From Alkalibacillus aidingensis (GTDB taxonomy: Bacteria > Bacillota > Bacilli > Bacillales > Alkalibacillaceae), in NCBI RefSeq assembly GCF_014595945.1, contig NZ_JABXWU010000001.1, positions 310,001 through 374,000 of the forward strand: a DNA stretch of 64,000 bases, given 5' to 3'. Below, piece by piece: positions 25,488 through 42,725 of this stretch; position 1 is the first letter of the stretch, and each line of letters starts with the position of its first letter. Below the pieces are notes generated by a model. It did no database searches, was not told the origin of the DNA, and saw only the letters and a list, made by a program, of their open reading frames with translations. A program made the translations under genes and the position numbers.

Positions 25488-25826
25488 AATTGACGGAAAA
25501 TCCATCGAGGGTGGTGGAACGTTAATTAGACCACTCCTAATTGACGGAAAAGTCATCGTGAGTTGGTGAAACGTTAATTAGATCTATTCTAATTGACAGA
25601 AAAGCCATCGTGGGGTGGTGGAACGTTAATTAGACCATTCCTAATTGACGGAAAAGTCATCATGAGGTGGCACAACGTTAATTAGACCACTTCAAATTGA
25701 GGGAAAAGCCTTCGTGAGGTGCTACAATGTTAATTAGATCACGTCTCTCAGACAATTTTACATCCACCCGTTTGCTCATGATGTCAGTGCCGCCTGATTA
25801 TAAAGCTGAGTAAATGAACATCATCT
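25411..25826. repeat. Inverted repeat bracketing the polC-rimP array
   Basis: AGATGATGTT at 25411-25420 and its exact reverse complement AACATCATCT at 25817-25826 enclose the tandem array, 416 bp end to end. It could mark the ends of an inserted repeat element or simply a long-range stem. No transposase or clear target-site duplication is visible. Confidence 0.45.
25488..25746. repeat. Tandem array of five 52-bp palindromic units (array A)
   Basis: Units begin at 25488 (51 bp), 25539, 25591, 25643 and 25695 (52 bp each). They start with AATTGACGG and contain AACGTTAATTAGA near the end. Each unit can fold: CTAATTGACG (counting two bases of the preceding unit) pairs with CGTTAATTAG, 10 bp with one G-U, around a loop of about 25 nt. 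The last unit is the most diverged (ATGTTAATTAG). No open frame runs through the array. There are no unique spacers, so it is not CRISPR. Confidence 0.85.
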
Positions 25827-25867
25827 ATCATACTCATTTAATGAAATCACATATAAGACGTAAAGGG

Positions 25868-25896
25868 TTGCAATAATTGGTTTTGTATGGTATATT
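25868..25896 (+). promoter_or_regulatory. Promoter of the rimP-nusA-infB operon
   Basis: TTGCAA (25868-25873) and TATATT (25891-25896) with 17-bp spacing and a TGG extension before the -10. Transcription would start near 25903, ahead of a terminator-like hairpin at 25931, giving a long leader before rimP. Confidence 0.65.
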
Positions 25897-25930
25897 TCAT
25901 ATTGGATAAGCAAAAGATACGGTTACGTTT

Positions 25931-25960
25931 AAGAGTGGGTCGCACCCACTCTTTCGTTTT
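25931..25960 (+). terminator. Terminator/attenuator in the rimP-nusA leader
   Basis: Perfect 10-bp stem AAGAGTGGGT / ACCCACTCTT with a 3-base loop, followed by TTTCGTTTT, a T tract interrupted by CG. It lies about 30 bp after the predicted start of the operon's own transcript and 700 bp after no other terminator for polC. Interrupted T tracts are typical of NusA-dependent terminators, and B. subtilis nusA is known to be autoregulated by attenuation in this leader. Confidence 0.65.
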
Positions 25961-25966
25961 ATCTAA

Positions 25967-25996
25967 CCCTGCTGGTCATACTTGACAACAGCAGGG
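25967..25996 (+). promoter_or_regulatory. Second hairpin in the rimP leader
   Basis: CCCTGCTG (25967-25974) pairs exactly with CAGCAGGG (25989-25996), loop 14 nt, 7 bp after the attenuator. The tail CAATTTATTG is too poor in T for a strong terminator. TTGACA at 25982-25987 inside it could be a -35, but no good -10 follows. Confidence 0.4.
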
Positions 25997-26087
25997 CAAT
26001 TTATTGTTTAGAAATCTCTTCTAATGTGGACAATATGATAATACGACTGTTTTACATAATAAGTATGATTTAAGGAGGTATCTGATC

Positions 26088-26561
26088 ATGAGTAGGAAAA
26101 TAGTTGACTTAACAGAAGACTTAGCTCAGCCGATTGTTGAACAGATGAATCTAGAGTTAGTCGATGTGGAGTTCGTAAAGGAAGGAAAAAACCATTTTCT
26201 ACGTGTCTATGTTGATAAAGAAGGTGGCGTTGATATAGAAGATTGTGAGAAGGTAAGTGAACAATTAAGTGAAAAACTTGATGAAAAAGATCCTATTGAA
26301 AGTGCCTATTTTTTAGAAGTATCATCTCCAGGTGTTGAACGTAAGTTGAAAAAGAGAGCCGATTTTGAACGCTTTGTGGGGTCCCATGCTTATGTGAAAA
26401 CCTACGAACCAATTGACGGGGATAAGGAATTCTATGGAGATATTAAAAGCTTTGAGAATGATGAGCTCACATTAACCATTAAAATTAAGACTAGGGAAAA
26501 AGAAGTCGTTATTCCTTATTCAAAAATTGCCAAAGCTCATTTAGCTGTTACATTTAATTAA
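26088..26561 (+). CDS. rimP: Ribosome maturation factor RimP
   Basis: Needed for 30S subunit maturation (YlxS in B. subtilis). 157 residues: the N-terminal alpha/beta domain with LELVDVEFVKEGKNHFLRVY and GGVDIEDCEKVS, then YFLEVSSPGVER, and a C-terminal SH3-like domain (VVIPYSKIAKAHLAV). AAGGAGG precedes the ATG. It is the first gene of the rimP-nusA-infB operon, ending 14 bp before nusA. Confidence 0.97.
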   Translation: MSRKIVDLTEDLAQPIVEQMNLELVDVEFVKEGKNHFLRVYVDKEGGVDIEDCEKVSEQLSEKLDEKDPIESAYFLEVSSPGVERKLKKRADFERFVGSHAYVKTYEPIDGDKEFYGDIKSFENDELTLTIKIKTREKEVVIPYSKIAKAHLAVTFN

Positions 26562-26575
26562 GGGAGGTAAAACAG

Positions 26576-27694
26576 GTGAATTCAGATTTATTTGAAGCAA
26601 TGGAAGTACTGGCAGATGAAAAAGGTATTGATCGTGAGGTATTATATGAAGCTTTAGATGCTGCAATTGTATCTGCCTACAAGAAAAACTTTAATTCTAA
26701 AACGAATGTTCGTGTAGAATTGGATTCAGAAGATGGATTGATGAAAGTGTTTGCTAGATTACAGGTTGTTGAAGAGGTTGAAGATGAAGACCTGGAAATT
26801 TCATTGGAAGAAGCTAAAGAGATTGATCCGTCTTATGAACTAGGAGACATCGTTGAGCGTGAGGTTACTCCACGAAATTTTGGTCGTATTGCTGCACAAG
26901 CGGCTAAACAAGTCGTGACTCAACGTGTGCGTGAAGCGGAGAGAGGCGTCATTTATAATGACTTTGTTGACCGTTTAGATGATATCATGATTGGTACGGT
27001 CCAACGTAAAGACCAACGCTTTCTCTACATACATTTAGGGAAGGTTGAAGGGAAATTACCCTTTAATGAAGTAATGCCTGGTGAAGTTTATAATGTCCAT
27101 GATCGTATTAAAGTCTATGTAACTAAAGTGGAAAACACAAGTAAAGGTCCACAAGTCTTTGTGTCTCGTACACATCCTGGACTCCTTAAACGTTTATTTG
27201 AAATAGAAGTTCCAGAAATTTATGAAGGAATTGTTGAAATTAAATCAGTTGCTAGAGAAGCAGGGGATCGTTCGAAAATTAGTGTACACGCTGATGATCC
27301 TGAAATTGATCCAGTTGGTTCATGTGTAGGTCAACGAGGACAGAGGGTACAAACAGTTGTTGATGAACTCAATGGTGAAAAGATAGATATTGTCCACTAT
27401 TCAGAAGACCCAGTTGTTTATATTTCAAACGCTTTAAGCCCTTCAAAGGTAACAGAAGTACTTGTAGATGAGGAAGAACATGCTACAACTGTAATTGTTC
27501 CGGACAATCAATTATCGTTAGCTATTGGTAAAAAAGGACAAAACGCTCGCCTAGCTGCTAAATTAACTGGTTGGAAAATTGACATTAAAAGTGAATCAGA
27601 GGCTGAAGAATCAGGTGTTTACAACCAGACTGGTGAGCAAGATGAGTTTGAAGAAGTTTTAGAAGACTTTGATGGTGAAGTTGATAACGACTAG
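26576..27694 (+). CDS. nusA: Transcription termination/antitermination factor NusA
   Basis: RNA polymerase-binding factor controlling pausing and termination. 372 residues: N-terminal polymerase-binding domain (to about 125), S1 domain (about 135-200), then two KH domains. The first contains [26 protein letters not shown] and the second [21 protein letters not shown]. An acidic tail follows ([14 protein letters not shown]), without the C-terminal acidic repeats of E. coli. The start codon is GTG with AAGGGAGG upstream. The leader of this operon has a hairpin suitable for NusA autocontrol. Confidence 0.98.
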
Positions 27695-27711
27695 TAAAGG
27701 GGGCTGTTAAA

Positions 27712-27978
27712 ATGGCAAATAAGAAAAAAGAACCTTTACGTAAATGTGTTGTTACTCAAGAAATGTTTCCTAAAAAAGAATTAATTCGTGTTGTTCGTAA
27801 CAAAGAGGGTGAGGTCTTCATTGATGAGACCGGCAAGAAAAATGGACGTGGTGCCTATTTAAAAAAGGATCGCACAGTTATAGAACAAGCGAAGAAAAAG
27901 AATGTATTAAAAAGACAACTAAATGCAGCAATCACCGATGAGCTTTATGATGAATTATTAAGCAAAGTAGGCGAGTGA
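27712..27978 (+). CDS. rnpM: RNase P modulator RnpM (YlxR)
   Basis: Small YlxR-fold RNA-binding protein, reported in B. subtilis to bind the RNase P RNA. 88 residues with the family signature RKCVVTQEMFPKKELIRVV near the start and GRGAYLKKD near residue 43. The rest is very basic. AAGGGGG precedes the ATG. It lies between nusA and ylxQ as in nearly all Firmicutes. Confidence 0.93.
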   Translation: MANKKKEPLRKCVVTQEMFPKKELIRVVRNKEGEVFIDETGKKNGRGAYLKKDRTVIEQAKKKNVLKRQLNAAITDELYDELLSKVGE

Positions 27979-27981
27979 AAT

Positions 27982-28284
27982 ATGGATAATAAATATTTAA
28001 ACTTGTTAGGATTAGCATTTCGTGCGAGAAAGATAACTTTGGGAGAACCGGCGATCATTGAGGATATTCGCTCGAAGCAAGCTAAACTTATACTTATTGC
28101 TAATGATGCATCATCAAATACGAAAAAGAAACTAATTGATAAAAGTCGCAGTTATCATGTTCCATATTTTATAGTTGATGATCGTCAAACGATCTCACAA
28201 GCGATTGGGCAAGAAGGTCGAGTAGCAGTTGCAATTAAAGACGTAGGGTTTGCGGAGAAGCTAAAGCAATTGTTATCGGATTAA
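27982..28284 (+). CDS. ylxQ: L7Ae-family RNA-binding protein YlxQ
   Basis: Ribosomal protein L7Ae/L30e-like kink-turn binding fold, 100 residues. [38 protein letters not shown] and [18 protein letters not shown] are typical. The exact role in bacteria is not settled. It starts 3 bp after the rnpM stop, with GGCGAG upstream as a weak binding site, so it is probably coupled to rnpM. Confidence 0.93.
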
Positions 28285-28301
28285 TATTCGGGGGTGAATG
28301 T

Positions 28302-30488
28302 ATGAAAAAAATGCGCGTATACGAATATGCGAAACAAAACAATCTAAGTAGTAAGGAAGTCATTAATAAACTGCAACAATTAGATGTTGAAATAAGTAAT
28401 CATATGTCAACAATTAGTGAGAATACGATTAGACAATTGGATGAATCCTTTGGTTCAAAACAATCAGAACAACAAGCTAAACAGACAAATGAGAAATCTA
28501 ATCAGAAGCCAAATCAAAAACCAAAGGGTGGAAATAAGCAACAAGGTGGACATAAACCTAAAGATGATACATCTAAGAATTCAAAACAACGGGGTCATAA
28601 ACCAGTGAATAATAAGCAAAAGCAAAATAATAACCATAAGCAAAAGCAAAATAAACAAAATAATAACCATAAGCAAGGAAACAAAAATAGAAATCATAAA
28701 AATAATCAGCAGCAACAGCAAAAAGCAAAAAATCAAACACCTGAAAAGATCACTTACCAAGGTTCATTAACAGTAGGAGAATTAGCTGAAAAGCTAAATA
28801 AAGATTCCTCAGAAATTATTAAGAAGTTAATGATGCTTGGGGTGATGGCAACCATTAATCAGCAATTAGATTCTGAATCCATCGAGCTTATTTGTGATGA
28901 TTTTGGTGTCGAAGTAGAAGAAGAGGTAGTTCTTGATCAAACTGACCTTAATAATTACATTGAAGAAGATCAACCAGAAGACTTAGAAATTCGTCCAGCT
29001 GTTGTTACGATTATGGGGCACGTTGACCATGGTAAAACGACACTGTTAGATTCCATCCGTCAAACAAAAGTAACTGAAGGTGAAGCAGGTGGGATCACGC
29101 AACATATTGGTGCGTATCAGATAGAAGATGATGGAAAGAAGATCACTTTCCTAGATACACCAGGTCACGCAGCCTTCACAAGTATGCGCTCTCGTGGAGC
29201 TCAAGTAACCGATATTGCGATTTTAGTTGTTGCAGCAGATGACGGTGTTATGCCACAAAGCGTTGAAGCGATTAACCACGCTAAAGCTGCAGAAGTACCG
29301 ATTATTGTTGCGGTAAACAAAGTCGATAAAGAAGGTGCCGATCCAAATCGGGTTATGCAAGAGCTTACCGAATATGAACTAGTACCTGAGGACTGGGGTG
29401 GAAGCACGATCTTTGTACCTCTTTCCGCTTTAAAAGGTGAAGGAATCGATGATTTAGTCGAAATGATCAACTTAGTTGCTGAGGTTGAAGAGCTTAAAGC
29501 CAATCCTGACCGTGAGGCATTTGGTACAGTGATTGAAGCACAACTAGAAAAAGGACGTGGAAGTGTTGCTACCTTGCTCGTTCAAAACGGTACGCTTCAA
29601 GTTGGTGATTCGTTAGTCGTTGGTAATACGTATGGTAAAGTACGCGCTATGGCCGATGACTTAGGTAAACGAGTTGAGAAAGCTGGACCTTCTGCACCAG
29701 TAGAGGTTATTGGGTTTAATTCTGTTCCTCATGCAGGCGATCAATTCTTAGTTTTTGAAGATGAAAAGCAAGCTAAGCAAATTGCTGAGCTTCGTGAACA
29801 AAAAGAAATAGAAGAACAACGTGAGTCAACTGGTAAAGTTAATTTAGATGAATTGTTTGAGCAAATCAAACAAGGTGACATGAAAGAAATTAACGTTATT
29901 GTTAAGGCTGACGTACAAGGTTCTGTTGAGGCTGTAGCGTCTTCATTAAGAAAGATTGATGTTGAAGGTGTTAAAATTAACATCATTCACACTGGTGTAG
30001 GCGCAATTACTGAATCAGATATTATCTTGGCCTCTGCATCTAATGCTGTTGTTATTGGTTTTAATGTTAGACCAGATAATAATGCGAAAAGAGCAGCTGA
30101 AACAGAAGGTATTGATATTCGTCTACACCGTATTATTTATAAAGTAATTGAAGAAATTGAAGCAGCGATGAGAGGAATGCTTGACCCAGAATATGAAGAG
30201 AAAGTTATTGGTCAGGTTGAAGTCCGTGAAACGTTTAAAGTATCTAAGGTAGGTACGATCGCTGGTTCATACGTGACTGATGGAAAAATCACAAGAAATT
30301 CTGGTATTCGAGTAATCCGTGACGGTGTTGTACAATTTGAAGGCGAAATCGATTCACTAAAACGATTCAAAGATGATGTTAAAGAAGTACAACAAAATTA
30401 TGAGTGTGGTATTACGATTAAGAACTTTAATGATATTAAAGAAGGAGATATCATTGAGGCGTATATCATGGAGGAAGTTGAACGTTAA
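28302..30488 (+). CDS. infB: Translation initiation factor IF-2
   Basis: GTPase that brings initiator tRNA to the ribosome. 728 residues: IF2-N domain ([19 protein letters not shown]), then a disordered Lys/Asn/Gln linker (about 55-147) that is almost free of hydrophobic residues. A second IF2-N domain ([20 protein letters not shown]) follows, then the G domain with [14 protein letters not shown] near 240, DTPGHAAF near 286 and NKVDKEGA near 340, and beta barrels and IF2 C domains. The linker DNA contains short direct repeats (ATAATAACCATAAGCAA at two places). The stop overlaps ylxP by one base. Confidence 0.98.
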
Positions 30489-30766
30489 TGATTGGTTACG
30501 CGTATGTTGAGTGTTTGTTATATGATGTTCATTCACTTAAGGAAAAGCGTTCCATTATCAAGCAAACGATGCATCAGATTCGTCATAAATTCAATGCGAG
30601 TATTACAGAAATGAACTATCACGATGTATGGCAGAGGACGGCATTTGGTATTGCAATCGTTTCTCGTGAAAAAGTCTCTGCTGAACAACAATTACAGCAA
30701 GTGATCGACCTAATCGATCAGCGTACAGATTTGGATGTAACCATTATTGATTATGAATGGTTATAA
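30488..30766 (+). CDS. ylxP: DUF503 family protein YlxP
   Basis: Conserved small protein of unknown function, 92 residues, always between infB and rbfA in this group. Family features are [18 protein letters not shown] near the start, [21 protein letters not shown] in the middle, and a short C-terminal strand. The start overlaps the infB stop (TAATG), so translation is coupled. Its position suggests a link to ribosome assembly, but this is only context. Confidence 0.9.
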
Positions 30767-30792
30767 TCCTCATTAGTTCCGAGGTGATGAAG

Positions 30793-31137
30793 GTGAGTAA
30801 TCTTAGAGCAAATCGTATTGGAGAACAGATGAAAAAAGAGCTTGGAGATATATTATCTCGAAAAATCAAAGATCCTCGAGTAGGTTTTGTCACTGTAACT
30901 GACGTTCGAGTTAGTGGTGATTTACAGCAAGCTAAGGTTTTCATCTCTATTTTTGGTGATGATCAGCAGCAAGAGGATACACTCGTTGGTTTAGCGAAAT
31001 CAAAAGGTTTTATTCGTTCAGAAATTGGTAAACGAATCCGTTTACGTAAGACACCAGAAATATCATTTGAAATCGACGAATCGATTCAATATGGTAATAA
31101 AATTGAACGAATCCTTGGTGACTTAAATAAAGATTAA
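30793..31137 (+). CDS. rbfA: 30S ribosome-binding factor RbfA
   Basis: KH-fold factor for late 30S maturation. Start GTG 30793 gives [20 protein letters not shown], matching the B. subtilis N terminus; GAGGTG is 7-8 bp upstream. An ATG at 30787 is in frame but too close to that site. Later blocks are [40 protein letters not shown] and [11 protein letters not shown]. 114 residues. A long hairpin follows. Confidence 0.96.
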
Positions 31138-31142
31138 TTTAT

Positions 31143-31174
31143 ACTAAAGGATAGACAAATGTCTATCCTTTAGT
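31143..31174 (+). terminator. Hairpin after rbfA
   Basis: Perfect 14-bp stem ACTAAAGGATAGAC / GTCTATCCTTTAGT with a 4-base loop, starting 6 bp after the rbfA stop. T residues lie within and just after the right arm rather than as a clean tail, so termination may be partial before truB. Confidence 0.6.
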
Positions 31175-31202
31175 CTATGTTTATAAAGAGGTGGCAGCGA
31201 TC

Positions 31203-32117
31203 ATGAACGGCATTATCCCGCTATGGAAACCAAAAGGGTTAACATCACATGATTGTGTGGTGAAATTAAGAAAGCTTTTAAAAACTAAAAAAATCGGACA
31301 TACAGGAACTTTAGACCCTGAAGTTGAAGGGGTTTTGCCTATTACGATAGGCAAGTCTACTAAACTAACAACTTTAATAACCGACCGCCCTAAAACTTAT
31401 TTAGCAGAATTATCATTAGGGAAGCAAACCACAACCGAAGACCAGACAGGTGATGTCGTTGAGGTTGAAAATATCGATCAACAAATTACATTTAATGAGT
31501 GTAAGGCTGCGTGTCAGCAATTTGAAGGTCAAATTAAACAAATTCCACCTATGTATTCTGCTGTTAAAATAAACGGTAAGAAACTGTATGAGTATGCACG
31601 TGAAGGCATTGAAGTCGATAGGCCAGCACGAGAAGTGACCCTTGAATATATTGACGTTATAGAAGGTTCTTTAGTTCAACATGCCGAGAATGATTTTAGA
31701 TTCAAGTTTAGGGTTAGATGTTCAAGTGGTACTTATGTCCGGACTCTTTGTGTAGATATAGGAAAGAAACTTGGTTTCCCAGCGCATATGGCTAGCTTAG
31801 TTCGTGAGTATGCTGGATCATTTTCAAAAGATGATGCTGTTACATTTTCTGAACTAGAAAGAGCACAAGAGGAACACTCGGTCGCTGAATTTATCCAGTC
31901 ACCTTCTCGAGCCCTTAATTTCTTACCAGTCCACGTTGTTTCTTCTAAAGAAGAGGCTATCCGTTATCAACATGGACAAGTATTACCAAGGCCAGATACC
32001 CTTTTAGACGATGAATTATTCCGTGTGGAAGATCGAGATGGTCAATTAATCGCTGTGTATCAAAAGCACCCTTCTAAAGAAGGACTTATTAAACCTTTCA
32101 AAGTACTGTATTCGTAA
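31203..32117 (+). CDS. truB: tRNA pseudouridine(55) synthase TruB
   Basis: Makes pseudouridine at position 55 of tRNA. ATG 31203 is used because AGAGGTGG lies just upstream; GTG 31191 is too close to it. 304 residues: LWKPKGLTSHDCV, then the catalytic motif HTGTLDPEVEGVLPI with Asp38, PPMYSAVKINGKKLYEYAREG, and RCSSGTYVRTLC, followed by a C-terminal RNA-binding extension. It precedes ribF, the usual Firmicutes pairing. Confidence 0.97.
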   Translation: MNGIIPLWKPKGLTSHDCVVKLRKLLKTKKIGHTGTLDPEVEGVLPITIGKSTKLTTLITDRPKTYLAELSLGKQTTTEDQTGDVVEVENIDQQITFNECKAACQQFEGQIKQIPPMYSAVKINGKKLYEYAREGIEVDRPAREVTLEYIDVIEGSLVQHAENDFRFKFRVRCSSGTYVRTLCVDIGKKLGFPAHMASLVREYAGSFSKDDAVTFSELERAQEEHSVAEFIQSPSRALNFLPVHVVSSKEEAIRYQHGQVLPRPDTLLDDELFRVEDRDGQLIAVYQKHPSKEGLIKPFKVLYS

Positions 32118-32133
32118 AAGAAGGTGAAAAACG

Positions 32134-33078
32134 ATGGAACTGTTACAGTTAAGTTATTCTCAACTAGGCCGTTTTCCTCAATTAGATGAATTGAGTGTTG
32201 CAGTTGGATATTTTGATGGTGTACATAAGGGGCATCAAGAAGTTATTCAGACAGCTGTTGAAGAGGCAGAGAAACAAAACATAAAATCAGGTGTGATGAC
32301 GTTTGCACCTCATCCACTTTCTGTTATTAAACAACAAAAGTTATCTGATTATCTAATTACTAGTCTTGAAGAAAAACTTGAGATATTTGAAGAATTAGAC
32401 GTTGATTACGTGATTGTTGTAACTTTTGATCAAGACCTTGCTAAATTATCCCCACAAACTTTTGTCGATGAATTTTTTATAAATTTAAATGTTAAGCATG
32501 TTGTTGGTGGGTTTGATTTTTCATTTGGACATAAAGGTGCAGGGAAGATTCAGGATATGAGGCATTATTCTAAAGGTGCTTTTTCGTTTTCAGTTGTTGA
32601 TCAAGTGTCTATTGGTAATGAAAAGATCAGCTCCACATTGATTAGACAATCGTTATCAAAAGGTGAAGTATCTTATGTTGAGAATTTAATGGGTCGTCCA
32701 TTTAGTATAACAGCTAAAGTCAAAGAGGGCTTTAAACGAGGAAGAGAAATTGGATTTCCTACAGCTAACCTGAATGTTGATTCAGAGCACAAAATTCCTA
32801 AAGTTGGTATTTATGCTGTAACAGCTGAAATAAATGGTGAACATTTATATGGCATGGCAAGTGTTGGTTTCAATCCAACATTTGATGATTCACATCATGA
32901 ACCGGTAATTGAAGTGAACTTATTCGACTTTAATCAAGACATTTATGGTGAGGATATTAAGGTTAATTTTCACCAATACATTAGGGATGAAGTCAAGTTT
33001 GATAATGTTGATGAATTAGTTGAAAAAATTAAAGAAGATGAGAAAAAGGTTAAAAAGTTTTTTAATATAAGTAGATAA
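32134..33078 (+). CDS. ribF: Bifunctional riboflavin kinase / FAD synthetase RibF
   Basis: Makes FMN and FAD from riboflavin. The N-terminal nucleotidyltransferase domain has AVGYFDGVHKGHQEVI near residue 24 and GFDFSFGHKGAG near 128. The C-terminal kinase domain has GREIGFPTANL near 207 and NPTFDD near 248. 314 residues is normal. AAGAAGGTG precedes the ATG, 16 bp after truB. No FMN riboswitch is visible in the short gap. Confidence 0.97.
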   Translation: MELLQLSYSQLGRFPQLDELSVAVGYFDGVHKGHQEVIQTAVEEAEKQNIKSGVMTFAPHPLSVIKQQKLSDYLITSLEEKLEIFEELDVDYVIVVTFDQDLAKLSPQTFVDEFFINLNVKHVVGGFDFSFGHKGAGKIQDMRHYSKGAFSFSVVDQVSIGNEKISSTLIRQSLSKGEVSYVENLMGRPFSITAKVKEGFKRGREIGFPTANLNVDSEHKIPKVGIYAVTAEINGEHLYGMASVGFNPTFDDSHHEPVIEVNLFDFNQDIYGEDIKVNFHQYIRDEVKFDNVDELVEKIKEDEKKVKKFFNISR

Positions 33079-33081
33079 CAC

Positions 33082-33110
33082 TTGCATTTATAGTTTATAA
33101 CGTGTATCTT
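33082..33110 (+). promoter_or_regulatory. Promoter of rpsO
   Basis: TTGCAT (33082-33087) and TATCTT (33105-33110), spacing 17 bp, with TG just before the -10. It starts right after ribF and leads into a structured leader. Confidence 0.55.
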
Positions 33111-33116
33111 TAAGAA

Positions 33117-33200
33117 TGTATGTAACACTAACCTTTTGCTTGGCATAACGAGTCTCCGCCGAATGCTAGGGAAAAGGGGATTAATAACTAATAGGAGGTG
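33117..33200 (+). promoter_or_regulatory. Structured rpsO leader (probable S15 autoregulation)
   Basis: Between the promoter and the gene, CCTTTTGC and GCAT near 33132-33147 can pair with ATGC and AAAAGG near 33163-33178. They enclose a GC-richer loop (CGAGTCTCCGCCG), giving a multi-part fold ahead of AGGAGGTG. S15-binding leaders before rpsO are established in Bacillaceae. The fold was read by eye only. Confidence 0.5.
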
Positions 33201-33206
33201 AATAGG

Positions 33207-33476
33207 ATGGCAATTTCACAAGAACGTAAAAACGAATTAATCAGTGAGTTCAAAACTCATGACAACGACACAGGTTCACCAGAAGTTCAAGTAGCTATCC
33301 TAACTGAGCAGATTACTACTTTGAATGACCACTTACGTGAGCATAAGAATGATCACCACTCTCGTCGTGGTTTAATGAAAATGGTAGGTAAACGTCGTAA
33401 TTTACTAAATTACTTACGTAACAAAGACGTTCAACGTTACCGTGAATTGATCAACAAGCTTGGTCTACGTCGATAG
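33207..33476 (+). CDS. rpsO: 30S ribosomal protein S15
   Basis: 89-residue small-subunit protein binding the 16S rRNA central domain. [50 protein letters not shown] and [13 protein letters not shown] are all diagnostic. ATG 33207 is used; the longer frame's GTG at 33198 overlaps the AGGAGGTG site. It has its own promoter, leader and terminator. Confidence 0.98.
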
Positions 33477-33485
33477 GATTTATCA

Positions 33486-33517
33486 AAAAAGCGGGGGATA
33501 AAACTCCCGCTTTTTCT
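33486..33517 (+). terminator. Intrinsic terminator after rpsO
   Basis: AAAAAGCGGG pairs with CCCGCTTTTT around a short A-rich loop, followed by T residues at 33511-33517. It lies 9 bp after the rpsO stop and can work in both directions. Confidence 0.85.
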
Positions 33518-33584
33518 TTATACCTAAAGGTATTTAATAGTTAAGAATGATCATCTAATGATTTGATACCCTCACCGTTTAGTT

Positions 33585-33613
33585 TTGACAAATTTAAGTT
33601 TCATGCTTTTACA
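33585..33613 (+). promoter_or_regulatory. Possible pnp promoter
   Basis: A consensus TTGACA at 33585-33590 has a weak -10 (TTTACA, 33608-33613) 17 bp on, preceded by TGC. The 226-bp gap between rpsO and pnp holds nothing else recognisable beyond the rpsO terminator. Confidence 0.4.
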
Positions 33614-35817: not shown

Positions 35818-35848
35818 ATTAATCATCAATTAACTTACTTAAAGAAAT

Positions 35849-35875
35849 AGAGCTGGTTTTTACCAGTTCTTTTTT
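35849..35875 (+). terminator. Intrinsic terminator after pnp
   Basis: AGAGCTGGT pairs with ACCAGTTCT (one G-U), followed by TTTTT at 35871-35875. It lies 31 bp after the pnp stop. Confidence 0.8.
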
Positions 35876-35910
35876 ATGGTTGAAATATTTGTTTGGGAGA
35901 GGGATAGAGA

Positions 35911-37131
35911 TTGATCAATAAATATACACTAAATAATGGTTTGAGGGTCGTAGAAGAGCAACTTTCAGCAGTAAGGTCGGTTTCAATTGGGATTTGGATC
36001 TTAACAGGCTCACGTAATGAACCAAAATCATTAAACGGGATTTCTCATTTAATCGAGCATATGTTATTCAAAGGAACAAAAAATCGATCCGCCAAAGAGA
36101 TTGCTGAAGCATTTGACTCCATAGGTGGTCATATAAACGCTTTTACTTCCAAGGAGTATACATGCCTATATGCAAAGGTAATTGATGAACATATTGAAAC
36201 GGCTGTGTCAATTCTGTCTGACATGATTAACCATTCTTTATTCGATGAAGAAGAGCTTGAACGCGAAAAGAAAGTGGTCTTAGAAGAAATTCTCATGACT
36301 GAAGACACGCCAGATGATATAATACATGATTATTTACACGAAGTGAGCTTTAAGGGACACCCACTGGCACAACCGATTCTTGGCAATAAAGAAACTCTAA
36401 ATAACTTCTCAAGAGCAGATTTGTTAGCTTATGTAGATCGTTACTATACATCTGATCGAATGGTGATTTCTGTTGCAGGAAATGTACCATCTAACTTTAA
36501 TGAGATTGTATCTGAACAGTTTGGCTCCATAAGACCAAGCCGAAACCAACAAGACTATTTCACCAAAACGTTTACGGTTGATTCACTTGTTAAACAAGAC
36601 GATATTAAACAAGCTCACCTCTGTCTAGGATATAATGGTGTACCTGTCGGTGATGAATCCGTTTATACGCTGTCTGTCTTGAATAATGTTCTTGGTGGAA
36701 GTATGAGTTCTAGGTTGTTTCAACAAATAAGAGAGGAAAAAGGGCTATCTTATGCGACATTTTCCTACCATAATACGTTTAGAGATAATGGGATTTTAAC
36801 TATCTATAGTGCAACAGCTCATGAACAACTTGATGAGATGGAAAGTATCATATATAACATTGTTAATGACATAAAAGCTAATGGTATTACCGATTCAGAG
36901 TTACAAAATACCATTCAACAACTTAAAGGCCAATTAGTTCTTGGCCTAGAGAATCCAAGTAGTCGAATGAGTCGTAATGGGAGAAATGAGTTATTAGATC
37001 AACCGCACCGTACGATAGATGAATTAATGCTTAAGCTTGAAGAAGTTGATCATGATGCTATTCATGATTTGACAAGTCAATTGTTTGATCATGACCCAGC
37101 TCGTGCATTGATTTTACCTGAAAGCATATAA
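35911..37131 (+). CDS. mlpA: M16 zinc peptidase MlpA (YmxG)
   Basis: Processing-peptidase-like zinc protease. The zinc motif HxxEH is seen in HLIEHMLFKGT near residue 47, and the third ligand Glu in the ELEREKKVVLEEI helix near residue 120. The second inactive half follows (LGGSMSSRLFQQIREEKGLSY). The start codon is TTG 35911 with GGGAGAGGG upstream, and homologues begin MI(N/K)KYTxxNG. 406 residues. In B. subtilis this gene lies just before the spoVF operon, as here. Confidence 0.94.
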   Translation: MINKYTLNNGLRVVEEQLSAVRSVSIGIWILTGSRNEPKSLNGISHLIEHMLFKGTKNRSAKEIAEAFDSIGGHINAFTSKEYTCLYAKVIDEHIETAVSILSDMINHSLFDEEELEREKKVVLEEILMTEDTPDDIIHDYLHEVSFKGHPLAQPILGNKETLNNFSRADLLAYVDRYYTSDRMVISVAGNVPSNFNEIVSEQFGSIRPSRNQQDYFTKTFTVDSLVKQDDIKQAHLCLGYNGVPVGDESVYTLSVLNNVLGGSMSSRLFQQIREEKGLSYATFSYHNTFRDNGILTIYSATAHEQLDEMESIIYNIVNDIKANGITDSELQNTIQQLKGQLVLGLENPSSRMSRNGRNELLDQPHRTIDELMLKLEEVDHDAIHDLTSQLFDHDPARALILPESI

Positions 37132-37163
37132 TGGTACAAATAATGTTGGAAAGGCAGATGTTT

Positions 37164-37406
37164 ATGCGTTATAAGGACTTATCAGGTAAAGAGTTGATTG
37201 ATGCTGACAGAGGTGAACGACTAGGTGTATTGGGTCATACGGATCTCCAAATTAACGAATCGACCGGACAAATTGAACAAATTGTTATACAGGATTACTC
37301 CATGTTAGGTTTTAAAAAAGGAGAGTCAACAGCAACGATAAGGTGGTCCGACATTGAAGTTATTGGAGAAGATATGATTGTCATCAAAAGAACAAAACAC
37401 GTGTAA
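37164..37406 (+). CDS. ymxH: PRC-barrel protein YmxH (YlmC-like)
   Basis: Small PRC-barrel domain protein of the YlmC/YmxH family, 80 residues (LSGKELIDADRGERLGVLG, then a beta-rich body and WSDIEVIGEDMIVIK). Relatives are common in spore formers; the function is not known. The frame extends back to 37131, overlapping mlpA, but GGAAAGG at 37148-37154 fits ATG 37164 at 9 bp, and this gives the family's normal N terminus. Confidence 0.9.
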   Translation: MRYKDLSGKELIDADRGERLGVLGHTDLQINESTGQIEQIVIQDYSMLGFKKGESTATIRWSDIEVIGEDMIVIKRTKHV

Positions 37407-37413
37407 ACATGTG

Positions 37414-37452
37414 ACTGACTCGAAATTTTTCGGGTCAGTTTTCACTTTTTCT
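37414..37452 (+). terminator. Terminator after ymxH
   Basis: ACTGACTCGAAA pairs with TTTCGGGTCAGT (one G-T), tail TTTTCACTTTTT. It ends just as the SigK-type promoter of dpaA begins. Confidence 0.75.
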
Positions 37453-37470
37453 AGACGTCTACATAATATA
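37444..37470 (+). promoter_or_regulatory. SigK-type promoter of dpaAB
   Basis: AC at 37444-37445, 16-bp spacer, then CATAATATA at 37462-37470, an exact match to the SigK -10 form CATANNNTA. B. subtilis spoVF (dpaAB) is transcribed by SigK in the mother cell, so both sequence and context agree. The dpaA ATG is at 37508. Confidence 0.75.
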
Positions 37471-37507
37471 TATTGGATTGAATGATAATGGGTAGGTAGG
37501 TGGTCGT

Positions 37508-38380
37508 ATGTTAACTGGGAAATCCATACTTATTATTGGTGGAGACGGAAGGTATATTGAGTTAATCAAACAGCTTACTTTTTTTGATGCAACTGTTTAC
37601 GCGATCGGTTTTGAAGAGGCTGAAGATGAATTAGACAATGTCTACTTAACCGACACTGATCATGTTGTTAAGGAACATATTGATGCAATTATTTTACCGA
37701 TTACAGGACTTGATCAAGAAGGCTTTGCTGAGGCACATTACTGTGAGTCATCACCTCAAATTAAAGAAGAGTGGCTAAATGAATTTTCAAAGGATTGTAT
37801 CATCTTTACGGGTATTAGAACACCGTTTTTAAATAACCATCAATTTGAAGAGCGGGTTATAGCGTTAATGGAACGAAACGATGTAGCTATCTATAACTCA
37901 ATTCCTACAGTTGAGGGTGCGATTATGCTTGCTATTCAGTATACCGACTTTACAATCCATAGCTCTAATGTCACTATTTTAGGGTTTGGTAGAGTAGGGA
38001 AAACGCTTGTTCATACCTTCAAAGGGTTAGGTGCCAATGTATCCGCTTATGCTAGACGAGAAGAAGAGTTAGCTCGTATTCATGAATACCATGCTAAACC
38101 CGTTGATGAATTTAATTTAGAGGAATCTGTGCGCGATTGTGATATTTTAATTAATACCGTACCGGATTTAATTGTGACACCAACAGTCATTCGTTCATTA
38201 CCTGCCGAAAGTTTGATTATTGATTTGGCTTCTAAGCCAGGTGGTGTTGATTTTCGCTATGCTAAAAAACGTGGTATAGAGGCAATCCTAGCACCTAGTT
38301 TGCCTGGAATGGTTGCTCCTAAGACGGCCGGTAAAATATTAGCCCATGTCATTCAAAACGTTATGCATCATCACGAATAA
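37508..38380 (+). CDS. dpaA: Dipicolinate synthase subunit A
   Basis: With DpaB makes dipicolinic acid, the spore-core chelator, from the dihydrodipicolinate pathway intermediate in the mother cell. 290 residues: N-terminal domain (LIIGGDGRYIEL), then a Rossmann NAD(P)-binding domain (ILGFGRVGKTLVHTFKGLGA, near residue 160) and a conserved end (SLPGMVAPKTAGKILAHV). TAGGTGG precedes the ATG. The gene is 18 bp before dpaB and under a SigK-type promoter. Confidence 0.97.
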   Translation: MLTGKSILIIGGDGRYIELIKQLTFFDATVYAIGFEEAEDELDNVYLTDTDHVVKEHIDAIILPITGLDQEGFAEAHYCESSPQIKEEWLNEFSKDCIIFTGIRTPFLNNHQFEERVIALMERNDVAIYNSIPTVEGAIMLAIQYTDFTIHSSNVTILGFGRVGKTLVHTFKGLGANVSAYARREEELARIHEYHAKPVDEFNLEESVRDCDILINTVPDLIVTPTVIRSLPAESLIIDLASKPGGVDFRYAKKRGIEAILAPSLPGMVAPKTAGKILAHVIQNVMHHHE

Positions 38381-38398
38381 CGGAAGGGGTTCGGTTTA

Positions 38399-38989
38399 AT
38401 GGATTTAAAAGGTAAGAGAATTGGTTTTGGTTTAACGGGGTCACATTGCACATATGATGAGACTTTTCCTGTTTTACAGGAGTTAGTTGATAGTGGAGCA
38501 GAGGTTGTACCCATTGTTTCGCATACGGTACAAACCACGAATACAAAGTTTGGAGATGCAGAGGATCATATTAATCGCATTAAAGAAATAACTAATCAAC
38601 CGTTAATCACATCGATTCCAGAGGCTGAACCATTAGGACCTAAAGAGCCTTTAGACTGTATGGTTATTGCACCAATGACAGGTGCTTCATTGAGCAAGTT
38701 TGCTAATGCATTGACAGACTCCCCAGTACTTATGGCAGCCAAAGCTACATTAAGAAACCGAAAACCAGTTGTATTAGCAATTTCCACAAACGATGCACTA
38801 GGATTAAATGCAGCTAATTTAGCAAAACTATTACCAGCTAAACATGTTTACTTTGTTCCTTATGGTCAAGATCACCCATATAAAAAACCAACATCTTTAG
38901 TTGCCCATATGTCGTTACTAAAAGATACCGTAGAGAAAGCCTTAGCAGGGGAACAACTTCAACCAATGCTGAAAGAATATGATCTGTAA
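38399..38989 (+). CDS. dpaB: Dipicolinate synthase subunit B (flavoprotein)
   Basis: Flavodoxin-like/Dfp-type subunit of dipicolinate synthase, 196 residues. N-terminal nucleotide-binding segment GFGLTGSHCTYDE, then VIAPMTGASLSKFANALTD and the end TSLVAHMSLLKDTVEKAL. The start is preceded by CGGAAGGGG. It is immediately followed by asd, dapG and dapA, which make its precursor, as in B. subtilis. Confidence 0.97.
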   Translation: MDLKGKRIGFGLTGSHCTYDETFPVLQELVDSGAEVVPIVSHTVQTTNTKFGDAEDHINRIKEITNQPLITSIPEAEPLGPKEPLDCMVIAPMTGASLSKFANALTDSPVLMAAKATLRNRKPVVLAISTNDALGLNAANLAKLLPAKHVYFVPYGQDHPYKKPTSLVAHMSLLKDTVEKALAGEQLQPMLKEYDL

Positions 38990-39008
38990 TGAGATTGTGT
39001 TTAAAATG

Positions 39009-39017
39009 TGATAAAAT
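39009..39017 (+). promoter_or_regulatory. Possible extended -10 upstream of asd
   Basis: TGATAAAAT (39009-39017) fits an extended -10, and a second TGATAAAAT lies at 39032-39040. Neither has a good -35. The 80-bp gap between dpaB and asd would let asd-dapG-dapA be transcribed in growing cells apart from the SigK signal. Confidence 0.3.
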
Positions 39018-39069
39018 GAAAAGACTTAAATTGATAAAATCGGAGTTTACTTAATGGAGGGTAACAAAA

Positions 39070-40119
39070 ATGGAAGTGAAAAGCAGATACAATGTAGCAA
39101 TCGTAGGAGTAACAGGAGCAGTCGGAGAACGAATGTTAGAAATGTTGGAAAAAGTAGATTTTCCGATTGATAATCTTGTTCCATTAGCCTCAAAGAGGTC
39201 AGCAGGAAAAACATTTAACTTTAATGGTGAGGAAGTGACAGTAAAAGAAGCTAAACCTGAGGCTTTTGAGGATATAGACATTGCCTTGTTCTCTGCTGGA
39301 GGTTCAGTATCACGTCAATTAGCTCCTGAAGCTGTCAAACGTGGTGCTGTAGTTATTGATAACACAAGTGCATTCCGTATGGATGAAGAAGTACCACTGG
39401 TCGTACCAGAGGTTAATAAAGAAGATATTAAAAACCATAAGGGGATTATTGCGAATCCAAACTGTTCAACTATTCAAATGGTTGCGGCTTTAGAACCCAT
39501 TCGAAAGGCATACGGGTTAGAGCGCGTGATTGTTTCAACTTATCAGTCTGTATCAGGTTCTGGCCATGATGCAGTTGAAGAATTGAAGGATCAAACAAGA
39601 GCTGTTTTAGAAGGAGATCCTGTCTATTCTGAGGTATTACCTGTTAAGTCAGAGAAGAGGCATTATCCAATTGCATTTAATGCCTTGCCACAAATAGATA
39701 CATTTGAAGATAATCATTATACATTTGAGGAAATGAAAATGATTAATGAGACCAAGAAGATTATGCACGAACCGGAATTAAAGGTTGCTGCAACTTGTGT
39801 TCGTCTCCCATTCTTTTATTCTCATGCAGAGAGTGTCTATATTGAAGTGGGCAACGAAGAAGTTACGGTACCACAGTTACAAGGACTTATTAAAGATGCA
39901 CCGGGTATTGTGTTAGAAGACGATATCCAAAATCAAGGTTATCCTACTCCACTTTCTGCAGAAGGTAAATTAGATATTTTCGTTGGTCGAATCCGAAAAG
40001 ATATTGATGTCCCTAATGGTTTTCATTTATGGGTAGTAGCTGATAACTTATTAAAAGGTGCAGCATGGAACTCTGTACAAATTGCTCAAGCCTTAATCGA
40101 GTATAATAGCGACAAGTAA
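39070..40119 (+). CDS. asd: Aspartate-semialdehyde dehydrogenase
   Basis: Reduces aspartyl phosphate to the semialdehyde for lysine, diaminopimelate, threonine and methionine. 349 residues: NADP-binding IVGVTGAVGERMLEML, FSAGGSVSRQLAPEA, catalytic Cys132 in ANPNCSTIQM, and the later HAESVYIE and GRIRKD segments. GGAGGGT precedes the ATG. It is in an operon-like group with dapG and dapA. Confidence 0.98.
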   Translation: MEVKSRYNVAIVGVTGAVGERMLEMLEKVDFPIDNLVPLASKRSAGKTFNFNGEEVTVKEAKPEAFEDIDIALFSAGGSVSRQLAPEAVKRGAVVIDNTSAFRMDEEVPLVVPEVNKEDIKNHKGIIANPNCSTIQMVAALEPIRKAYGLERVIVSTYQSVSGSGHDAVEELKDQTRAVLEGDPVYSEVLPVKSEKRHYPIAFNALPQIDTFEDNHYTFEEMKMINETKKIMHEPELKVAATCVRLPFFYSHAESVYIEVGNEEVTVPQLQGLIKDAPGIVLEDDIQNQGYPTPLSAEGKLDIFVGRIRKDIDVPNGFHLWVVADNLLKGAAWNSVQIAQALIEYNSDK

Positions 40120-40152
40120 ATCATCCAATTAACGTAGCCTTTATAGAAAAAC

Positions 40153-40185
40153 GACTTCATCTCTTGATATTTAAAAGATGGAGTC
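40153..40185 (+). promoter_or_regulatory. Hairpin between asd and dapG
   Basis: GACTTCATCT (40153-40162) pairs with AGATGGAGTC (40176-40185), one G-U, loop 13 nt, ending just before the dapG binding site AGAGGTGG. It lacks a T tail. It does not have the size or conserved core of a lysine riboswitch. Confidence 0.4.
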
Positions 40186-40203
40186 TGAACATAGAGGTGG
40201 AAA

Positions 40204-41424
40204 ATGGGATTAATCATCCAGAAATTTGGCGGAACATCTGTTAGAAATCCTATGTCGCGTGAGCATGCGATTAACCAAGTAGAGCATGCTTTAAGAGATG
40301 GAGATCAAGTGGTTGTTGTCGTTTCTGCAATGGGGCGTAAGGGAGAACCTTATGCTACTGATTCGTTACTTGAGTTAATTCAGTATCCACAAACAGCTGT
40401 TTCTAATCGAGAAGTTGATTTACTAGCCTCATGTGGTGAAATCATTTCAACTGTTGTGTTTACTCATGAACTAAGGAAGCTTGGGATCACAGCTGCAGCT
40501 ATGACAGGTCCGGATGCTGGTTTCTTAACAACAAGTGAATATACAAATGCTAAAATTAGTAAGGTAAATACATCTAAATTGAAAGAATACATGAAAGTCA
40601 ATGAGGTCGTGGTCGTAGCAGGCTTTCAAGGTAAGAATGAGGAAGGGAACATCACCACATTAGGTCGTGGTGGATCTGATACCTCAGCTGTTGCACTAGG
40701 TGCTGCACTAGGTGCTGATTATGTCGATATTTTTACCGATGTTGATGGTATTAAAACTGCTGATCCTCTTTTAGTAAAAGAGGCAAAAACGATTAAGGCA
40801 GTAACCTATCATGAAATCGTACATCTAGCTTATCAAGGTACCAAAGTTATTCACCCACGGGCTGTAGAAATAGCCATGCAGGAAAAGATTCCTTTACGAG
40901 TTAGATCAACTTACTCTGAAGAGGAAGGAACCTTAGTAGCTTCTAAGGTTGATTCGAGCATGGATGCTCACCTTAAAGAAAGATTAGTTACGGGTATTGC
41001 ATATGTAGCTAACATCACTCAAATTAAGGTTTTAGCCAATAAAGAACCTATTCAACTACATCAAGAGGTTTTGCAACAACTTGCTAAAGCAGGTATTTCG
41101 GTTGATTTCTTTAATATTGCTACAGAAGGTCTTACCTTTACAGTACCTAATGCCCGGCTTAGTGAGGCAGTTCAGATAATTGAGGTTCTTGGTTATGACG
41201 TACAATTAGAAGAAGATTGTGCAAAAGTTTCAACAGTTGGTGCAGCCATCCAAGGTGTACCTGGAGTGGCTTCAAAAGTCGTCAACGCGTTGGCTAAACA
41301 TGGTATTCAGATTTTACAATCAGCCGATAGTCACACGACCATTTGGGTGTTAGTTAAGGAATCTGAATTAGAAACAGCGGTCAATGCATTACATGACGAA
41401 TTTTTATCCTTTAACAATGATTAA
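40204..41424 (+). CDS. dapG: Aspartokinase I (DapG type)
   Basis: First enzyme of the aspartate family pathway. 406 residues: N-terminal IIQKFGGTSVRNP, kinase core with TTLGRGGSDTSAVALG and FTDVDGIKTADPL, and two C-terminal ACT domains that bind the effector. In B. subtilis DapG responds to diaminopimelate, but this cannot be read from sequence alone. AGAGGTGG precedes the ATG. The stop codon lies in the loop of a 13-bp hairpin. Confidence 0.96.
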   Translation: MGLIIQKFGGTSVRNPMSREHAINQVEHALRDGDQVVVVVSAMGRKGEPYATDSLLELIQYPQTAVSNREVDLLASCGEIISTVVFTHELRKLGITAAAMTGPDAGFLTTSEYTNAKISKVNTSKLKEYMKVNEVVVVAGFQGKNEEGNITTLGRGGSDTSAVALGAALGADYVDIFTDVDGIKTADPLLVKEAKTIKAVTYHEIVHLAYQGTKVIHPRAVEIAMQEKIPLRVRSTYSEEEGTLVASKVDSSMDAHLKERLVTGIAYVANITQIKVLANKEPIQLHQEVLQQLAKAGISVDFFNIATEGLTFTVPNARLSEAVQIIEVLGYDVQLEEDCAKVSTVGAAIQGVPGVASKVVNALAKHGIQILQSADSHTTIWVLVKESELETAVNALHDEFLSFNND

Positions 41425-41440
41425 TGTATTGTTAAAGGAT
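41406..41440 (+). promoter_or_regulatory. Hairpin around the dapG stop codon
   Basis: ATCCTTTAACAAT (41406-41418) and ATTGTTAAAGGAT (41428-41440) are perfect reverse complements, 13 bp, with the TAA stop (41422-41424) in the 9-base loop. Neither strand has a T tail, so it is not a typical terminator. Confidence 0.6.
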
Positions 41441-41504
41441 AAAATTATACTTAGGAATGGGCGTTCGTCACGCTGTTAAAGGAATAAAGTAGAAATCATT
41501 TAAA

Positions 41505-41538
41505 GGCTCTAAACTATTATTTTATAATAAGTAGAGCC
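41505..41538 (+). promoter_or_regulatory. Hairpin in the dapA leader
   Basis: GGCTCTA (41505-41511) pairs with TAGAGCC (41532-41538), and the AT-rich interior (TATTAT/ATAATA) can extend the stem. It lies 19 bp before the dapA ribosome binding site, in a 148-bp gap with no clear promoter. A role in mRNA stability or attenuation is possible. Confidence 0.4.
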
Positions 41539-41572
41539 GTTAAGAATTTATGATTGGAAGGGGTTTATAAAA

Positions 41573-42439
41573 TTGGATTTTGGAAAAGTATTAACAGCAA
41601 TGGTCACACCATTTGATTCAGAAGGTCAACTTGATTTGGATAAAACAGAAAAGCTTGTGGAGTATCTATTAGATCATGGTTCAGATGGTTTAGTCATCGG
41701 TGGTACAACAGGTGAATCACCGACACTAACTAAAGAGGAGAAACTGTCCTTATTTAACCATGTCGTCCAATTAGTTGATGGAAGAGCATCCGTCATTGCG
41801 GGTACTGGTAGTAATAATACTCATGCAACAATTGAGCTAACCAAAGCAGCTGAAGATACAGGTGTTGATGGTGTCATGTTAGTGACTCCTTTTTATAATA
41901 AACCTAATGAGGAAGGTTTGTATCAACACTTTAAAACAGTATCAGAAAACACGAACTTACCGATCATGCTATATAATGTCCCTGGTCGTTCTGTTGTTAA
42001 TATGTCAGTGGATACGACAGTTGCGCTATCTAATTTATCGAATATTGTTTCAATCAAGGATGCAAGTGGGGATTTGGACATGATGAGTGAAATCATCGAA
42101 CGAACAGCTGATTCATTTAGTTTGTATGTAGGTGATGACAGTTTAACATTGCCTGCTTTGTCAGTTGGTGCAAATGGTGTTGTATCTGTTGCAGCACATG
42201 TACTAGGAGATGATATGCAAACGATGACAGAAGCGTTCCATCAGGGTGAAGTTAAAAAAGCAGCAGAAATTCACCGACAGTTAGTACCAAAGATGAACGC
42301 TTGCTTTATGGCACCTTCACCATCACCTGTTAAAGCAGCCTTAAACCACATCGGTGTCGATGTTGGTCCTGTGAGGTTACCATTGGTGCCTATTACAAAC
42401 GATGAGTATAAGGAATTAACCACAACATTAAATATTTAA
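41573..42439 (+). CDS. dapA: 4-hydroxy-tetrahydrodipicolinate synthase
   Basis: Condenses aspartate semialdehyde with pyruvate, the branch point to lysine, cell wall diaminopimelate and dipicolinate. 288 residues, TIM barrel: GGTTGESPTLTKEE, catalytic Tyr134 (MLYNVPGRS) and Schiff-base Lys162 (SIKDASGDL). The start is TTG 41573 with GGAAGGGG 8 bp upstream. It is the last gene before a 448-bp gap that holds the second repeat array. Confidence 0.97.
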   Translation: MDFGKVLTAMVTPFDSEGQLDLDKTEKLVEYLLDHGSDGLVIGGTTGESPTLTKEEKLSLFNHVVQLVDGRASVIAGTGSNNTHATIELTKAAEDTGVDGVMLVTPFYNKPNEEGLYQHFKTVSENTNLPIMLYNVPGRSVVNMSVDTTVALSNLSNIVSIKDASGDLDMMSEIIERTADSFSLYVGDDSLTLPALSVGANGVVSVAAHVLGDDMQTMTEAFHQGEVKKAAEIHRQLVPKMNACFMAPSPSPVKAALNHIGVDVGPVRLPLVPITNDEYKELTTTLNI

Positions 42440-42517
42440 GCCTGATTTTGTAAGTTTATTGAAATTATGCAGATAAGATGGATGATGTGCATCATCACTC
42501 AGACTTTCTTGGGCTTT

Positions 42518-42725
42518 CGATGACGTTTGGACCTCGTTTGAAGCGCAAAACGTAACCGAGGCGCTCTTTCGATGACGTTTCACCGCCGTTTGAAGCGCAA
42601 AACGTAACCGAGACGCTCTTTCAATGACGTTTCACCGCCGTTTGACGTGCAAAACGTAACCGAGACGCTCTATCGATGACGTTTCACCATTGTGTGAAGC
42701 GCAAAACGTCATTGAGAAACACTGA
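42518..42725. repeat. Tandem array of four 52-bp palindromic units (array B)
   Basis: Units begin at 42518, 42570, 42622 and 42674, each 52 bp. The first three end in GAGACGCTCTTT or close variants; the last is diverged at its end. Each unit has GATGACGTTT near the start and AAAACGT about 22 bp on. In the fourth unit ATGACGTTT pairs exactly with AAACGTCAT. The first three keep the inner 6 bp plus C-G pairs further out. There are no unique spacers and no open frame through the array. Confidence 0.85.

Follow-up and report, generated by a model that had tools for sequence, protein, structure and literature searches.

Two tandem arrays in intergenic DNA

The 64,000-nucleotide stretch of the Alkalibacillus aidingensis genome that was analyzed here (the window, in whose coordinates positions are given unless a contig or locus is named) contains two tandem arrays of 52-bp repeats, A and B. 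Within the genome they belong to one sequence family, and across the order it is the layout of the repeat unit that is common and not its sequence. Tentatively, and at a little under an even chance for the reading as a whole, we take A and B to be two copies of one dispersed, non-coding tandem-hairpin element. Both arrays are flanked by co-directional genes: A by polC (ending at 25374) and rimP (starting at 26088), and B by dapA (ending at 42439) and a ClpP-like tepA (starting at 42888). These four identities are our presumption, as the names were read from translations of the open reading frames (ORFs) with no database result behind them.

A preliminary description, made from the letters alone, had reported both arrays, and Tandem Repeats Finder (TRF) recovered them at period 52, A at 25484-25738 (4.9 copies, score 321) and B at 42514-42709 (3.8 copies, score 299). 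The limits first given for A, 25488-25746, were too narrow, since the array extends into a B-like unit at its head and a diverged unit at its end. The features are as follows, in a register in which a unit starts at TCT:

25411..25826, no strand assigned: element A, about 410 bp long, with inverted ends whose 14-nt arms are 93% complementary (end motif compared across loci)
25433..25484, plus strand: B-like unit heading array A (model match C1:335433-335484, 53.4 bits; letters)
25485..25743, plus strand: array A, five A-type units, the first of 51 bp and the other four of 52 bp (TRF)
25744..25795, plus strand: diverged closing unit of array A, beginning TCTCTCAGAC (letters; no separate covariance-model match)
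42468..42754, no strand assigned: element B, bounded by comparison with an 86.9% identical copy at another site of the genome, near C1:530,700 (pairwise alignment and BLAST row)
42510..42717, minus strand in the homologous orientation: array B, four B-type 52-bp units (TRF, model matches and letters)

In this register A-type and B-type sequence already adjoin inside array A. A hairpin followed by a T run stands at 42785-42820, directly beyond element B, so that the element may separate dapA from its possible own terminator.

One dispersed family in one genome

Arrays A and B are not the product of chance. BLAST against the own genome returned 63 rows with A and 47 with B (rows overlap and arrays recur), and an iterated position matrix placed 175 units in 31 array loci. 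Consecutive units are spaced by 52 bp in 130 of 143 cases and by 51 bp in five, the remaining eight being found at 45, 47, 57 or 103 bp. A covariance model built from 32 units gave at least 148 matches at E<=0.01 in the same genome, a floor given that the search scored 150 candidates. The proposal that A and B form one family with one 52-bp register, which had been made to hinge on such further units, thus holds genome-wide by BLAST, position matrix and covariance model, as well as through the B-like unit at the head of array A. The shared motifs that had been listed, GACG at 5-8 and AACGT at 32-36 in the register then used, are correct except in the 51-bp first unit of A.

The orientation in which B had been aligned with A was wrong, which went unnoticed because the dyad of the unit hides its orientation. 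The plus-orientation alignment gave mixed-strand arrays (among them L002, L003, L009 and L013) and was replaced by one in which B is reversed. After reversal 29 of the 31 array loci are strand-uniform, the exceptions being L017 and the last unit of L037, and in the four loci named above A-type and B-type units share one register. Units with one arm of each type, as the supposed exchange of arms would give, do exist: in single units at L002:1764 and L033:1453 the left arm is A-type and the right arm is B-type.

Units are near-identical within arrays, and this includes the 27-bp middles; unique spacers of the CRISPR type were not seen. By ORF calls all 31 loci were scored as intergenic; in L025, L028 and L087 short ORFs overlap the array. 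The flanking genes are co-directional at 22 loci, convergent at seven and divergent at two, and at the 22 co-directional loci the array strand is the same as that of the genes in 11 and opposite in 11. No Rfam family matched at gathering score in the window or in seven loci with arrays or related elements.

The abundance of arrays was estimated from 400 kb of own DNA picked regardless of arrays (C12:1-200000 and C19:1-200000), in which TRF found 22 merged arrays with a score of at least 120, some of them with coding-like periods. The class with periods of 51-54 bp accounted for 11 arrays in this sample, which together with the two of the window makes 13 in 464 kb or, by proportion, about 80 per genome. 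The dominant periods of the genome are 20-21, 40-42 and 52-53 bp, and the shorter arrays (of around 20-21 and of 40-42 bp) are frequent. Additional subfamilies in the sample include TCTATCGGACATT..GGCCTTGAGA and a 53-bp one with CTCTTTGACCGG..CCGGGAAGAGAG. In the own genome, arrays of around 21 bp keep the core TCCGACTGT / ACAGTCGGA and are more variable in the rest (L173:11422-11782, L174:11182-11578, L175:5641-6236 and L186:18032-18227), and long 53-bp arrays of 12 to 15 copies are only remotely like A and B (L166:4083-4772, L165:11823-12466 and L175:11089-11884).

The sequence family was not recovered in the relatives in which a search had been proposed. The covariance model had no match in the 21 further genomes of the family that were searched, among which were five congeners, and none at E<=1e-5 in 298 other genomes of the order (stricter filters, 19 candidates scored per genome). 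A DNA search with element B across 60 genomes matched in the own genome only, and exact patterns of the own family were absent from the genome_contigs and viral_contigs collections, which may omit the own or very near genomes. The congeners sampled were Alkalibacillus haloalkaliphilus NBRC 103110 (G001), A. haloalkaliphilus C5 (G003), A. filiformis (G002), A. almallahensis (G004) and A. salilacus (G005). TRF found no tandem arrays in 200 kb of G001, 200 kb of G004 and 100 kb of G005, one 48-bp array in 98 kb of G003, and eight arrays in 100 kb of G002 with periods of 40, 41, 61, 62 and 126 bp, none of them 52. A. filiformis also holds arrays with a pitch of 20-21 bp and other cores (TATTCGGTAATAA and TTTATCGGCGC). 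In a genome of another genus (G007) no arrays were found in 60 kb.

A 52-bp layout across the order

The repeat unit consists of a 47-bp imperfect palindrome, with 10-bp arms and a 27-bp middle, and a 5-bp spacer. Its layout can be written as TCT-N4-GAC, 27 bp, GTC-N4-AGA and 5 bp, 52 bp in total. A comparison of subfamilies had pointed to the fixed letters of the arms (TCT-N4-GAC and its reverse). Among the consensus rows of own arrays 29 of 46 carry these letters in one orientation and none in both, where shuffles expect 1.2; as two arrays were entered twice, this corresponds to 27 of 44 distinct arrays. The idea that TCTN4GAC is a restriction site was dropped, since the 145 occurrences outside arrays in about 454 kb lie within the 115-167 obtained for other gap lengths.

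The order was searched with a pattern of three TCTN4GAC half-sites at exact 52-bp spacing, and the same pattern read backwards served as control. The pattern was present in 54 of 397 genomes and 25 of 136 genera, own genome included, at up to 368 places per genome, and absent from the four congeners among the 397. In a phylum-wide sample of 398 genomes two matched, both among the seven of the same order, and none of the 391 genomes from outside the order did. One of the array-bearing genomes is that of Allobacillus halotolerans. The arrays fetched from other genomes have 52-bp periods and unrelated middles. They were picked by the left-arm pattern, the right arm and the N4 playing no part in the choice. 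When both arms had to match exactly, 13 of the 21 genomes examined yielded 100 units, counted on both strands, with a right-arm offset of 37. An offset of 38 was seen in four units, and no other value between 20 and 59 reached three. Between genomes, therefore, the layout is common and the sequence is not, and the 'shared blueprint' of the preliminary description is supported as a layout and not as a sequence. Outside the own genome 25 arrays were placed relative to ORFs: 21 are intergenic, three have an ORF mostly over the array and one lies inside a longer ORF. At L327:8213-8270 (genome G112) a T run directly follows the last array unit and would read as an intrinsic terminator.

Periods were compared in 400 kb taken at arbitrary places from ten array-bearing genomes; because the 52-bp pattern had served to select them, the sample is informative only as to which other lengths are missing. 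In this sample 14 arrays passed, 11 of which were not flagged as coding and had periods of 20 (three), 41 (two), 52 (five) and 104 bp (one, inside a longer ORF). The three flagged as coding had periods of 21, 33 and 51 bp, the last resembling the 52-bp class in an array that happens to be open. Same-strand distances between TCTN4GAC sites in the ten genomes were mainly 52 (9), 104 (7), 102 (5) and 51 (4), with others occurring at most once. In the own genome 52 (19), 104 (14), 106 (7), 84 (6), 42 (5) and 53 (4) were found, and 698 kb of the congeners yielded two distances in all. That the periods are multiples of the helical turn is a lead and not a result.

Pairing of the arms

The pairing rule that had been proposed, in which paired positions sum to 42 (48 in the TCT register), stands: 64% of cells pair over 54 units, against 34-45% for the other sums from 40 to 56. 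The changes from A-T to C-G and G-C between A and B, which had been taken as compensating, are present in the letters, but three of the four B units also have two or more broken pairs elsewhere in the arms (A.C and G.A). Within the own genome the covariation is weak. There, 71.0% of cells were paired compared to 68.1% after shuffling (two of 500 shuffles as high), the covariation score was 0.219 compared to 0.191 (19 of 500 as high), and 10 pairs had changed on both sides compared to 12.1 in shuffles. Pairing was well above that in slid registers (34-46% paired), and RNAalifold on 32 own units returned no consensus structure.

Across genomes the covariation is strong at the four free positions, which supports the argument from compensating changes once other genomes are included. 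By array consensus, 72.9% of N4 positions were Watson-Crick pairs, versus 40.3% after permutation (0 of 2000 as high); for this test 24 of 31 arrays were kept and seven were dropped for having fewer than eight of the 12 fixed letters, a cut-off also reached by 37 of 300 shuffled units. By exact units (35 distinct arm pairs from 13 of 23 genomes, collapsed for strand), 2.83 of the four positions were complementary versus 1.91 after permutation (0 of 5000 as high), and mispairing arms between genomes gave no value as high in 3000 trials. Perfect N4 pairs made up nine of 57 (both strands counted). The behaviour of the arms fits a stem that pairs and has fixed triplets at its ends as well as it fits arms that are inverted copies and undergo mutual conversion.

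The two strands differ in folding. The mean z by unit was -2.95 in the homologous orientation and -1.84 in the complement (71 units), and the homologous orientation folded better in 25 of 31 arrays. Over 65 units, 176 mispaired cells were G.T versus 112 A.C. The asymmetry is carried mostly by a few columns, in arrays that share descent and with an orientation that is doubtful for L012, L016 and L020. Folded as a whole on the plus strand, array A has a z of -5.4 and array B of -2.5. As a lead, the asymmetry points to a single-stranded form, RNA or DNA.

Inverted ends and empty sites

Two inverted ends around GATGATGTTCATTAAC could be placed in 19 of the 31 array loci, yielding element lengths of 209-628 bp, and in addition at two loci without a 52-bp array, L075 and L083. 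Placement tolerated up to 3-4 mismatches, and four loci were located by hand. With at most three mismatches the end motif had 82+82 matches in the own genome versus 26+29 for its reversed control, and with at most two mismatches 28 versus 2. In the congeners the latter threshold gave 2 to 11 matches versus 2 to 4 for the control, the highest number being found in G002. No end pairs flanking a gene were noticed among the matches listed for the motif.

Both sites of the window are empty in the congeners. In a comparison by eye, all five congeners lacked an array both in the polC-rimP gap and in the stretch before tepA; at the latter site two of them have a different repeat (L065 and L066). Of the features of a miniature inverted-repeat transposable element (MITE), shared terminal inverted repeats and empty sites in relatives were found, and a target-site duplication was not. 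The same inverted ends also enclose another intergenic repeat, of the CTCCAGCAGAATACTCCGCTTTCC type, either by itself or next to a 52-bp array (L083:1503-1960, L075:1503-1796 and L092/L037); similar repeats stand in the congeners (L065, L066), and Rfam had no match for those in L083, L075 and L037. Carriage by phages was considered and rejected: the layout pattern hit two stretches in viral contigs, which were taken as chance on an estimate from its 18 fixed bases, and a two-unit pattern hit none. When an array of another genome (L332) was compared with plasmids and phages, no match was found.

What the arrays may be

The reading that we prefer, while giving it slightly less than half of the probability, is that of an intergenic, non-autonomous tandem-hairpin element with arms that are recognised by a trans-acting factor. 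Most likely, a protein would read the arms as a paired stem and touch the fixed TCT/AGA and GAC/GTC triplets, and the N4 letters would need only to pair with each other. Non-autonomous spread would carry the arrays from one gene gap to another, in the own genome as elements that share inverted ends, and slippage or recombination inside the array would alter the number of copies. The retention of the layout in many Bacillus-like bacteria while the sequence changes suggests a factor that reads the layout. Somewhat improbable to us is the wider proposition of a single undescribed, order-wide system, in which a factor in many Bacillus-like genera would read the stem, the fixed end triplets, four free inner pairs and a pitch of around five helical turns. 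If true, lineages would rewrite the array sequence and keep the layout, and the factor should therefore be findable by comparing array-bearing and array-free sister genomes.

Several observations weigh against the preferred reading. The N4 letters pair only in part, and conversion of one inverted arm by the other could account for this pairing; at columns 11-20, farther inside, there is little covariation (101 of 2000 permutations reached the observed value). The exact two-arm unit was absent in eight of the 21 genomes examined. The reversed control was not silent, matching in 30 of the 397 genomes with a total of 291 matches versus 1804 for the pattern; 34 genomes had the pattern without any control match, ten had the control only, and in eight the control equalled or exceeded the pattern. 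We think that the control matches come from 52-bp arrays of other sequence, as chance alone would give well under one. With respect to mobility, the inverted ends are not present at L015, L017 and L018, for which reason they are not part of the array definition. Target-site duplications were not significant (best adjusted p 0.10 with 16 pairs and 0.27 with 21 pairs), and no autonomous copy or transposase was seen, a dedicated transposase search not having been made. The genomes in which the control is as frequent as the pattern or more so (e.g. G104, G133, G234 and G349) suggest that there are further 52-bp array families with other triplets.

Three other explanations were considered. In one, which we regard as unlikely, a dimeric architectural or regulatory protein binds the inverted TCT-N4-GAC half-sites in double-stranded DNA and the arrays organise or insulate the chromosome, the 52-bp pitch setting the copies about five helical turns apart on one face. 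The fixed triplets and offset fit this explanation, as do the lack of a strand preference relative to genes and the periods, which among the non-coding-flagged arrays of the ten genomes were 20, 41, 52 and 104 bp only and in the own genome are mainly 20-21, 40-42 and 52-53 bp. However, a duplex reader of the triplets only would not require complementarity between the N4 of the two arms, and absence from congeners together with patchiness in the order would be unusual for a chromosome-organising system. Alternatively, the arrays could be transcribed and the tandem hairpins could act in the transcript, through protection, processing, termination or protein binding. The better fold in the homologous orientation and the z values of the whole arrays A and B on the plus strand argue for such an RNA element, but the array strand agrees with the co-directional genes in only 11 of 22 cases, no Rfam family was found at gathering score and the few columns behind the fold asymmetry are shared by descent. 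We consider this explanation quite improbable.

Finally, an ancestral palindromic repeat could have spread by chance, with slippage homogenising the units, the layout being inherited without function and the N4 complementarity being kept by conversion of the arms. The patchy, lineage-specific occurrence, the near-identity of units inside arrays and the fact that no function was seen all agree with such neutral minisatellites. The explanation has difficulty with the constancy of the triplets and of the 37-bp offset among genera whose N4 and middles are completely different, and we give it a low probability. Catalogues of intergenic repeats are usually organised by sequence and compiled for one species at a time. 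It is of consequence that the sequence model has no match in the 21 other genomes of the family, whereas arrays of this kind are recovered with the layout pattern in 54 of the 397 genomes of the order. If a common factor reads the layout, a hidden repeat class becomes visible and the factor directly testable, in array-bearing versus array-free sister species. If there is no such factor, the arrays constitute a clear case of repeat geometry outliving its sequence.

Comparison with known systems

A description of the 52-bp element was not found in the open-access literature; as most subscription papers were outside the scope of the search, it may still have been published. Mycobacterial interspersed repetitive units (MIRU) are minisatellites found over many intergenic loci of one genome. 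Compared by description and not by sequence, the 52-bp arrays are like them in being minisatellites dispersed over many intergenic loci, and we know of no MIRU with a palindromic layout shared across an order.

The nearest kinds are the STAR elements of Staphylococcus and BrickBuilt of Porphyromonas gingivalis. The 52-bp element is assigned to neither of them, given that the own DNA examined lacks the STAR motif and that no target-site duplication was detected. According to the part of the source available, STAR elements are defined by a GC-rich 14-bp motif and consist of short direct repeats between which spacers of at least 40 bp recur, giving a period of at least 54 bp (PMC3532100). They are likewise intergenic direct repeats at species-specific places, patchy among related species, variable in copy number and of unknown function, and palindromic arms with a free complementary N4 were not found for them in that part of the source (PMC3532100). 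The STAR motif TNTGTTGNGGCCC had no match in 95 partly overlapping own loci (984,375 bp), a result that applies to those loci and not to the rest of the genome. BrickBuilt is, in the portion of its description at hand, a MITE that holds a 23-nt minisatellite, with about 19 copies and a restricted host range (PMC4596501). It resembles the elements described here in that an intergenic tandem array is enclosed by a leader and a tail that have small inverted ends, and differs in its 23-nt units without spacers and in its unrelated repeats; moreover, some of its copies are said to carry target-site duplications, which were not found for the 52-bp elements (PMC4596501).

REP elements and the CGTC- and GTAG-tagged palindromes are, as far as the consulted part of the source goes, also small and dispersed in intergenic DNA (PMC3733652). 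The CGTC elements have stems of 8-9 bp and loops of 4-5 bases and rarely cluster, according to a table in that paper (PMC3733652), whereas the 52-bp class is built from a 47-bp dyad repeated head-to-tail in arrays of fixed pitch.

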